A DNA stretch of 40,100 nucleotides from a virus. Below, one piece after another: positions 3,997-10,558 of the stretch. The notes under the pieces are model-generated. The model was not told the origin of the DNA. It did no database searches and saw nothing but the letters and a program-made list of their open reading frames with translations. The position numbers and the translations under genes are program-made. Where the stretch lies: the IMG/VR virus record IMGVR_UViG_3300037847_006595, positions 1 through 40,100 of that record. The stretch is one strand, 5' to 3'. The first letter of the stretch is position 1, and each line of letters begins with the position of its first letter.

Positions 3997-4144
3997 ACAA
4001 CTAGTGAGGGGGAATATAAACCAAAACACACCCCATGTTAACCCCTTTATTCCGCGCCTCCAACCCTTACCTATAGGAACGAGTATATATTACGAACCGC
4101 AAAGTAAACGCGTTGTTCGCGACTATTCACAAAGGCATGTGTAA
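3962..4144 (+). CDS. Doubtful small ORF, 60 aa, overlapping the membrane protein
   Basis: Starts inside the preceding gene in another frame (an earlier in-frame ATG at 3941 gives 67 residues). The product is Pro, Arg and Tyr rich (NPFIPRLQPLPIGTSIYYEP) and ends QRHV just before promoter P3, the same arrangement as other genes that end next to a promoter. Against it, the codon use (CGC, CCC, CTC) is unlike the phage average and there is no start signal. It may be a real micro-gene in the unusual-composition stretch or chance. Confidence 0.3.
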   Translation: MTRGRNGLIVYEQLVRGNINQNTPHVNPFIPRLQPLPIGTSIYYEPQSKRVVRDYSQRHV

Positions 4145-4149
4145 AATGG

Positions 4150-4181
4150 CTTGGAATTTGAAAAAAGGGTTTGTATATTTA
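4150..4181 (+). promoter_or_regulatory. Host-type promoter P3 (CTTG-N20-TATATTTA)
   Basis: CTTG at 4150-4153 (one change from TTTG), a 20-base spacer ending AGGGTTTG, and TATATTTA at 4174-4181. It points into a region with no convincing long gene but with a strong hairpin, so it may drive a noncoding transcript. Confidence 0.6.
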
Positions 4182-4189
4182 AGTAAGAT

Positions 4190-4327
4190 ATGGTAAAGTC
4201 GCGTGTAGGTGCGGTGGAGTGGGTGATTGCGTGTTATGAGCATGCATTGGTGGTACAGAATACGACGGTAGGGAGGTATACACCAGTACCTAAGCCGTAC
4301 CGCTTACCTTACTATAAGTTATTGTAG
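4190..4327 (+). CDS. Possible micro-ORF, 45 aa, directly after P3
   Basis: ATG lies nine bases after the -7 element, so a transcript would be nearly leaderless. The product begins MVKSRVGAVEWVIACYEHAL and ends KPYRLPYYKLL. Codon use is G-rich (GTG, GCG, ACG, GAG), unlike neighbouring genes. There is no AAGTT start context. It is plausible as a host-takeover micro-protein, but the stretch could equally be the 5' part of a noncoding RNA. Confidence 0.3.
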   Translation: MVKSRVGAVEWVIACYEHALVVQNTTVGRYTPVPKPYRLPYYKLL

Positions 4328-4685
4328 TATTATTTATTTATTATTTATGTAGTACCTTGTGTAGGGGTGGTTAGTACTTTGTACGTAACTATCCCTACCG
4401 TTGTTGGTACTGGATAATATATTCTCACCGCTATATCCCTTACACATGCATATAATATTTTTGCCGCCGTACCGCGTACGCACGTAATAATTACCCACGG
4501 ATAGCCGCCGTCCATCGGGCGTGTATATGCGCAAAAAAAGTTTTAGCTGTCTTTATGGTTCGAAAACGATCTTAAATCATCGATTGTATATAAGGATATA
4601 TATGGGTAAAGGGATTAAAATTTATGATATGTGGATTCTTTTTTTTAAAAAAATTTTGATTATCGACAAAATATATACGGAGATA
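4328..4685 (+). other. Intergenic stretch without a convincing gene
   Basis: About 360 bases between the micro-ORF and promoter P4. It holds the 4351-4411 hairpin, a smaller CGTAC-CGC-GTACG hairpin at 4468-4480, the self-complementary GTAATAATTAC at 4484-4494, and T8A7 at about 4639-4653. Up to about 4530 it is clearly richer in G and C than the flanking genes. A 38-codon + strand frame at 4602 runs through promoter P4 and is discounted. A 66-codon minus-strand frame at 4334-4534 opens with TTG and is also discounted. Confidence 0.6.
4351..4411 (+). ncRNA. Strong nested hairpin, candidate structured RNA
   Basis: Bases 4361-4377 pair with 4381-4398 over 17 base pairs with a TTT loop and one bulged G (4385). 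The flanking AGTACC (4351-4356) and GGTACT (4406-4411) form an outer six-pair stem. Two pairs (4367-4392, 4369-4390) are G-U in the + transcript but would be C-A mismatches in the other strand's transcript, so the fold favours a + strand RNA. Promoter P3 lies 170 bases upstream. No run of T follows the stem, so it is not a simple terminator. No known RNA family is recognised. Confidence 0.5.
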
Positions 4686-4717
4686 TTTGGAGAAGCGAGG
4701 GAGGGTTCGTATATTTA
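4686..4717 (+). promoter_or_regulatory. Host-type promoter P4 (TTTG-N20-TATATTTA)
   Basis: TTTG at 4686-4689 and TATATTTA at 4710-4717 with a 20-base spacer ending GAGGGTTCG. It fixes the start of the next gene at 4738, 20 bases downstream. Confidence 0.8.
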
Positions 4718-4737: not shown

Positions 4738-4947
4738 ATGACAATCGAACAATTTAAAGAAAAACACAATGAGTGGGGTTATCCAGATACAAATAATGTA
4801 TTAATGAGAATAGCTTCAAATTTATCAGATTTACACATCGAAAAAACATTTTTTACAGATGAAGAAATGGATCAAAAATTAAATGCACTCAAAAAATATA
4901 TATTTGATTATCAAGAAGTTTTAAGAAAAGAAAAAGAAAATGTGTAA
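4738..4947 (+). CDS. Hypothetical helical protein, 69 aa
   Basis: ATG at 4738 is chosen because it follows P4 and has the AATTAAAGTTATG context; a longer reading from 4687 would start inside the promoter. The protein begins MTIEQFKEKHNEWG and is predicted mostly alpha-helical and charged. Its C-terminal half (DEEMDQKLNALKKYIFDYQEVLRKEKENV) looks like a coiled coil. Small acidic/basic helical proteins of this size are typical early phage products. No family is recognised. Confidence 0.8.
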   Translation: MTIEQFKEKHNEWGYPDTNNVLMRIASNLSDLHIEKTFFTDEEMDQKLNALKKYIFDYQEVLRKEKENV

Positions 4948-5016: not shown

Positions 5017-5832
5017 ATGCTAAACGAAGAAACATTACAAACAGCAAAGTATTTAAGTAAAGAAAATATTAAATCACTTGCACCAGCAGTATTTGCTAAA
5101 ACACCTAGTAGTGAGGTGTCAAAACACTATACTCATATTCCAACAGAAAGAGTTATTGATGATATGGAGTTATTGGGTTGGAAAGTTATTGAAGCTAAGG
5201 AAGTAAAAGCAAGAAAAAAATCAACTAGAGGTTTTCAAAAGCACTTATTAGTGTTTAGAAATGATGAAGTTGTTATTAATGGTAAAGATGGTGATACAGT
5301 TTTTCCACAAATATTAATGACTAATTCTCATGATGGTAAAAATGCTTTTAATTTTGAAGCAGGTTTATATAGATTAGTTTGTTCTAATGGATTGGTAATT
5401 GCCGATACAAGATTTGAGTCAGTTAAAATGAGACATATGGGTTATTCATTTGATGATTTACAAGTTAAAATCAAAGAAATGGTTGAAAATCTTCCATTAA
5501 CAGTTGAATCAATGAATAAAATGAAAGCTACAGAGTTAGAGCAAAAACAAATTTTAGATTTTGCTAAAGAAGCTTTAAATACTAGATTTAATGAGAATGA
5601 ATTAAATAGAATTAAAATAGATATGGATGAATTCATCAAACCAGTTAGAAAAGAAGATGAAGGAAAAGATCTATGGTCAGTATTTAATGTAGTTCAAGAG
5701 AAAATTATTGATGGAGATTTTGAATATATTGCAGGTGGTAAGCTTAGAAAAGCTAGAGAAATTAAAAATTTCAAGCAAGATATGAAAATAAATAAAGAGT
5801 TATTTAATGTTGCTTTAGAGTATGCCTCATAA
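5017..5832 (+). CDS. DUF932 family protein
   Basis: The 271-residue protein matches the DUF932 (YfjQ/YubP-like) pattern found on phages, plasmids and integrated elements. It has an N-terminal TERVIDDMELLGWKV segment, the KSTRGFQKHLLVFRN strand region (residues about 69-83), the hallmark FEAGLYRLVCSNGLVIAD (about 113-130), then a long helical C-terminal half. Its biochemical role is not established. It has the AATCAAGGTTATG start context and its own promoter P5. It overlaps the nucleotidyltransferase gene by 11 bases, so the two may be co-expressed. Confidence 0.85.
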   Translation: MLNEETLQTAKYLSKENIKSLAPAVFAKTPSSEVSKHYTHIPTERVIDDMELLGWKVIEAKEVKARKKSTRGFQKHLLVFRNDEVVINGKDGDTVFPQILMTNSHDGKNAFNFEAGLYRLVCSNGLVIADTRFESVKMRHMGYSFDDLQVKIKEMVENLPLTVESMNKMKATELEQKQILDFAKEALNTRFNENELNRIKIDMDEFIKPVRKEDEGKDLWSVFNVVQEKIIDGDFEYIAGGKLRKAREIKNFKQDMKINKELFNVALEYAS

Positions 5833-10394: not shown

Positions 10395-10480
10395 GTCAGA
10401 GTGGTGGAATAGGTAGACACGTTGGACTTAAAATCCAATGAACAGTAATGTTCGTGCGGGTTCGATTCCCGCCTCTGATA
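10395..10480 (+). tRNA. tRNA-Leu (anticodon UAA)
   Basis: The acceptor stem GTCAGAG/CTCTGAT has one G-U pair at the end. The anticodon stem TTGGA/TCCAA (10422-10426, 10434-10438) encloses loop CTTAAAA with anticodon TAA at 10429-10431. A long class II variable arm (GAACA-GTAA-TGTTC) confirms a leucine-type tRNA, and the T arm is GCGGG-TTCGATT-CCCGC. The discriminator is A. CCA is not encoded. It reads TTA, by far the commonest leucine codon in these genes. Confidence 0.95.
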
Positions 10481-10484
10481 CTAG

Positions 10485-10558
10485 GGATCAGTAGCTCAGC
10501 TGGATAGAGCATTAGCCTTCTAAGCTAACGGTCGCAGGTTCGAATCCTGCCTGATTCA
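10485..10558 (+). tRNA. tRNA-Arg (anticodon UCU)
   Basis: The acceptor GGATCAG/CTGATTC has a G-U at the second pair. The D arm is GCTC-AGCTGGATA-GAGC. The anticodon stem TTAGC/GCTAA encloses loop CTTCTAA with anticodon TCT at 10519-10521. The T arm is GCAGG-TTCGAAT-CCTGC and the discriminator is A. CCA is not encoded. It lies four bases after tRNA-Leu, so they share a transcript. It reads AGA, the dominant arginine codon here. Confidence 0.95.

Follow-up and report, generated by a model that had tools for sequence, protein, structure and literature searches.

A rhythmic noncoding locus of related marine phages as a candidate cis-acting platform

A stretch of about 500 nucleotides in a viral genome, with a promoter pointing into it, a strong hairpin and no good gene, raises the question of whether an RNA or the DNA itself is being maintained there. 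The stretch lies in a 40.1-kb IMG/VR virus record (40,100 nucleotides, analysed whole and called the window below), which carries T4-like tail genes, has its genes on the + strand and, judged by its proteins, is closest among cultured phages to the Baltic Flavobacterium phage immuto. The first-pass annotation read positions 4190-4685 as a noncoding RNA, for instance one that titrates a host factor or regulates phage genes. We gathered 40 related viral loci via the protein of the downstream DUF932 gene and found that the conserved unit is a composite noncoding locus, present in about 50 related marine phage loci with one copy per genome, and conserved while its surroundings are otherwise rearranged. 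It runs from an element A through promoter P3 (which is not universal) and a directional array to a core B and the DUF932 gene. Sequences within a group are related, so that counts are not independent, and the main support comes from agreement between groups whose arrays cannot be aligned. The features of the locus in the window are the following.

4014-4135, + strand: element A, with TTAACCCC at 4038-4045, a CCAACCC box, GTATATA at 4083-4089, half-sites, and TTCACAA at 4126-4132
4151-4181, + strand: promoter P3, TTGG-N15-TTTGTATATTTA, with TTGG at 4151-4154 and TTTGTATATTTA at 4170-4181; the motif is the one that precedes ORFs elsewhere
4190-4327, + strand: doubtful 45-codon frame, not a gene
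4270-4491, + strand: directional array of TA/GTAC(C) units with a 3.67-nt (11/3) period, best described as A-N-T-A-C-K-T-A-C-Y-T
4351-4411, + strand: outer helix around the hairpin, AGTACC (4351-4356) with GGTACT (4406-4411); altered in relative L002 (...CTTACT), not strictly kept
4361-4398, + strand: hairpin inside the array, 17 pairs, TTT loop, single G bulge
4492-4601, + strand: core B, with TACCCACG, GCCGTCCATCG-GCGTGTATATG, A-rich AAAAAAAGTTTTAGC, TTTATGGTTCG and ATCATCGATTGTATATA
4606-4686, no strand assigned: AT-rich stretch after B (GC 0.21); the relatives are not consistently AT-rich here (mean GC 0.30)
4662-4678: third motif copy C, ATCGAC..TATATAC, resembling the ATCGAY..TATATAC motif of A and B
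4686-4717, + strand: next promoter, TTTGG-N15-TTCGTATATTTA, serving a small ORF at 4738
5017-5832, + strand: DUF932 gene (Pfam PF06067, E 1.5e-33; synteny)

The hairpin was the starting point. Refolding confirmed it as first described, with 17 pairs, a three-base loop and one bulge within AGTACC/GGTACT, and its stability is indeed biased to the + strand RNA (−21.2 kcal/mol, vs −13.2 on the − strand). Together with the outer helix it reaches −29.2 kcal/mol, it ranks first in stability among all 42-nt windows on both strands of the 40.1 kb, and the region 4190-4685 folds better than its dinucleotide shuffles (z −2.5; 0 of 100 shuffles as good). The hairpin is kept in L001 (98.5% DNA identity) and L002 (89%), where the stem is invariant and differences fall only in the loop and the outer helix. 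Outside these two it is absent, and nine more distant relatives fold differently at the same place; therefore the hairpin is young, and is best explained as arising in one lineage, either as a by-product of the palindrome-rich array or as an elaboration of it. The noncoding RNA proposed at the outset thus holds in part: the region is noncoding and promoter-led in this phage, but the comparison gives no support for a conserved regulatory RNA built on this hairpin.

P3 fits a phage promoter motif, TTTGG-spacer-TTYGTATATTTA, found before many genes in the window and in a 164-kb relative (G001), which bears out its annotation as a promoter; the motif resembles the published Bacteroidetes −33/−7 promoter, TTTG/TANNTTTG (PMC6847099). 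P3 is directed into the element in the window, L001, L002, L009 and others, though not in all relatives: L046, L052, L075 and L093 keep A, the array and B with no recognisable P3, which argues that the P3 transcript is not the conserved product, though these four may use a promoter of an unrecognised type. The doubts first raised about the 45-codon frame were justified, since in L002 (89% identical) an indel of one nucleotide puts it out of frame, and no dominant 3-nt coding period is seen in the array. The layout varies in other ways among the relatives. In group 3 a 166-172-aa ORF lies between A and the array, and the other groups have no such ORF; in L003, L006, L015, L021, L032, L041, L068 and L089 it stands directly upstream of the array, its stop codon abutting it, and it has conserved NDCVVRAIANAC and HALAI motifs and no Pfam match. 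In L082 and L088, B comes after a gene with little or no array.

The array carries a strong 3.67-nt rhythm. GTAC is enriched between P3 and B (98 copies vs 53 expected), spacings between copies of GTAC or ACC peak at 4, 7, 11, 22, 33 and 44 nt, and periodograms show a sharp line at 3.66-3.68 nt in every group, with power relative to shuffles of about 6-fold in groups 1/2, 5-fold in group 3, 5-fold in group 4 and 4-fold in the rest. Of 35 loci taken singly, 32 show a stronger rhythm than any of 60 shuffles, and the rhythm exceeds dinucleotide shuffles as well as an order-3 Markov model (mean 1.39 vs 4.37 observed). The power ratio is 5-7 at 3.67 nt, about 1 at 11 nt and 0.8-2.0 at 5.5 nt, and there is no rhythm at 10.5 nt. 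Since power at 11 nt is at background, the array is not a decayed 11-mer tandem repeat, and we rejected an integer 11-mer repeat of the iteron type on the same ground; Tandem Repeats Finder reported only a 21-nt stretch with an 11-nt unit, and no array. A scan of the whole window put its highest 3.67-nt peak at the array (8.7 sd, start 4251), and two relatives of 158 and 164 kb likewise peak most strongly at the locus. Other positions in these two genomes, and in immuto, reach a lower 5-6.6 sd, so a single window at 5-6 sd is not unusual and the case rests on recurrence across loci.

That recurrence takes several forms. Four groups share the rhythm although no alignment between their arrays is possible, and gap lengths between related arrays peak at 3-4, 7, 11 and 15 nt, whereas the control falls smoothly (pairs are not independent here). 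TA steps are phase-locked to B across loci to within about one nucleotide (resultant 0.70, n=33). The array is also directional, with TACCT found 36 times vs 6 for AGGTA. A rhythm that outlives the alignability of the sequence is a physical fingerprint of how something grips nucleic acid.

Core B is the best-conserved part. Its profile gives an nhmmer E of 1e-35 in the window and matches about 50 distinct loci, distant ones included, its exact pattern occurs in 53 stretches of viral contigs, and the spacing of its blocks is nearly constant among copies. RNAalifold predicted zero pairs in 39 diverse copies, the mean folding z of 48 copies was −0.12 on the + strand and +0.20 on the −, and a consensus-fold shuffle test with 32 copies gave −1.46 (+) and +0.38 (−). 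Conserved, constantly spaced and without RNA pairs, B would seem to behave as a protein-binding sequence; an unstructured RNA is possible. We found no B in immuto, and the pattern of its end motif was not found in bacterial and archaeal genomes. In a Blast search against 50,697 phage records, a long query hit only DUF932, and B itself matched no better than by chance. We rejected the idea that B acts as the promoter of the genes after it, those genes often being convergent (230-500 bp off). Motif copy C also lies about 80-100 nt past B in several relatives, for example L009.

Element A (nhmmer E 7.9e-30 for the window) stands 430-1365 nt upstream of B in over 25 loci and carries repeated, operator-like GTGAAC/GTTCAC half-sites next to P3, as well as inverted ones (ACGAAC at 4092-4097, GTTCG at 4115-4119). 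The half-sites change in matching fashion, and the consensus-fold z of −4.4 (+) and −2.8 (−) suits a dyad in DNA as well as a small hairpin. In the 164-kb relative the CGA..TATATAC motif occurs at A, at B and only once elsewhere, on the other strand, from which it follows that the A/B pair forms a single locus. A single long RNA in which A pairs with the region after B was rejected, the complementary stretch not being kept in relatives.

Elsewhere in these genomes, a pair of neighbouring tRNA genes (Rfam) lies at 10395-10558 on the + strand of the window; the 164-kb relative has such a pair too, about as far from B. The two tRNAs of the window were the only hits at gathering score in an Rfam search of it, and a permissive search up to E 10 added nothing relevant. 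Both long relatives have extended gaps that lack coding-strand ORFs and show raised GC (0.35-0.47), at 140376-142099 in the G002 contig (L129:376-2099) and at 134091-137555 in G001; neither gap has an Rfam match.

Taken together, the rhythm in four unalignable groups, the sizes of the indels, the phase lock and the foldless B favour a cis-acting platform over a trans-acting noncoding RNA. The reading we lean towards, tentatively and with somewhat less than even confidence, is that the phage chromosome has here a nucleoprotein platform that acts in cis, and most likely an element of the origin-of-replication type. Proteins would sit on A, at its repeats, and on the conserved core B, and the array in front of B would offer a TA/GTAC step every 3.67 bp, or three in 11 bp. 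Starting in the array, a helical assembly of protein, or melting and wrapping of the DNA, might then spread into B. Transcription begun at P3, or at a promoter farther upstream, would cross the array toward B and the AT-rich stretch, and may open the duplex or supply a primer. Protein binding, DNA melting and the role in replication are all things we infer. GC skew gives no origin mark in the window, because nearly all genes are on one strand and the skew follows gene class. Against an origin, the AT-rich stretch after B does not appear to be general in the relatives; against a platform of DNA only, directionality of the array is something that an RNA would also show.

The strongest competitor, rather unlikely in our judgement, has as the functional product a transcribed noncoding RNA of 350-450 nt (in group 3, a 3' UTR) that starts from P3 or from another promoter upstream. 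The array would be recognised in the RNA, for instance through a multimeric protein that binds UAC units every 3.67 nt; titration of a host factor is included here. The array is directional and lies downstream of a same-direction promoter in most loci, and the folding z of −2.5 for 4190-4685 fits as well. The array of groups 1/2 contains, in 11 relatives, two small hairpins of the sense strand with 81% of cells paired, compared with 35-49% in slid versions, and their covariation score is reached by only 1 of 500 shuffles, a control that shared ancestry can inflate; several of their pairs alternate between U-G and C-G, which favours a sense RNA. Group 3 has lower folding energies on the sense than on the antisense strand. 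This modest covariation in one set and the sense-strand folding of group 3 point to RNA and count against the DNA platform. The RNA reading has to contend, however, with group 4 arrays and B, neither of which yields a consensus fold, with the 15-pair helix of group 3 (94% paired), whose covariation does not go beyond shuffles (the alignment starts inside the helix for three rows), with the lack of an Rfam match, and with the four relatives that lack P3 and keep everything else. RNA structure thus seems possible but not general in the array, whereas the rhythm is general.

A site for packaging initiation, segregation or homologous pairing, in which the array wraps a multimeric ring or aligns two duplexes, would suit the single copy and the helical-type phasing. 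Two remote analogies lend it some colour, the 11- and 12-mer rings of the terminase small subunit of the T4-like phage 44RR (PMC9611059) and the recognition between duplexes of interspersed homology with an 11-12-bp period in Neurospora (PMC4858203). T4-like phages are, however, reported to package without a unique pac site (PMC9611059), and the locus is not near a terminase gene, that of immuto lying about 56 kb from its DUF932 gene, so we consider such a site improbable. A plain transcriptional control region, with A and B as operators for phage or host regulators and the array as a spacer with DNA-bending signals, is improbable to a similar degree: the repeated half-sites beside P3 and the promoters on both sides would be explained, but genes past B are often convergent and 230-500 bp away, and spacer DNA would not hold a 3.67-nt phase with matching indels. 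That the locus is a functionless chance hairpin in low-complexity sequence or a decayed tandem repeat is very improbable, for although the array is rich in short palindromes such as GTAC and a 21-nt stretch with an 11-nt unit is reported, this is already contradicted by a rhythm conserved across groups that no longer align, and also by the background power at 11 nt and the conservation of B across distant contigs.

Returning to the cis-acting platform, should these marine Bacteroidetes-type phages have their origin here, the locus would be their cis element for starting replication and a direct way to the initiator. Set against the open-access literature, it may even be a platform class not described before, a directional, degenerate array of TAC-type units at 11/3 nt, phase-locked to a 110-bp core, a possibility that we regard as doubtful. 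Such a platform would call for a protein that polymerises helically along DNA or RNA, three subunits to every 11 nucleotides, or else for some other physical way of reading one-third helical turns. A role as RNA would suggest a multimeric RNA-binding protein whose step is unusual.

The DUF932 gene is the constant neighbour of the locus, 0.3-5 kb downstream of B wherever the gene is in reach. A functional link through its product was considered and dropped, as the AlphaFold model is only moderately confident (pLDDT 75.8) and has no significant structural match: Foldseek gave none at E <= 0.001, and VIA-align gave no Z above 6.6 and no significant match. RAD52 chains recur among the weak Foldseek hits, at E 0.4-1.9 and TM-scores of 0.08-0.22 that are too weak for use. 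In immuto (MW353175), a 300-nt noncoding gap located 2-3 kb downstream of the DUF932 gene is flanked by ACCCGT/ACCTGT direct repeats with about 12-nt spacing (66.3-66.9 kb; L109:26312-26897), and the arrangement looks like an origin with iterons.

Among known systems, the immuto gap shares with our locus a noncoding setting near a DUF932 gene in a related T4-like phage and phased repeats that contain ACC, but it differs in its 12-nt spacing, in repeats that flank a 300-nt gap and in having no A or B sequence. The noncoding RNAs GOLLD, ROOL and OLE (PMC12286853) are likewise long noncoding stretches in phage-type genomes, whereas the locus has no Rfam match and no conserved secondary structure in its best-conserved part. 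Plasmid partition sites of the ParMRC parC type have repeats spaced by 11 bp. Like the locus, they are arrays of short units with 11-bp-related spacing near a promoter; the unit of the locus is 11/3 nt, however, with no power at 11 nt, and no ParM- or ParR-like gene was recognised among the neighbours scanned. In T4, oriF and oriG consist of a promoter and an AT-rich downstream unwinding element, and oriE has evenly spaced 12-nt repeats (PMC3016281). These origins have no sequence relation to the locus, which has a 3.67-nt rather than a 12-nt period and contains the long conserved core B. Both, however, involve a T4-like phage, a promoter directed into a noncoding stretch and short phased repeats, with AT-rich DNA downstream in the window, and the T4 origins would therefore be the nearest functional analogy to the locus rather than a class to which it belongs.
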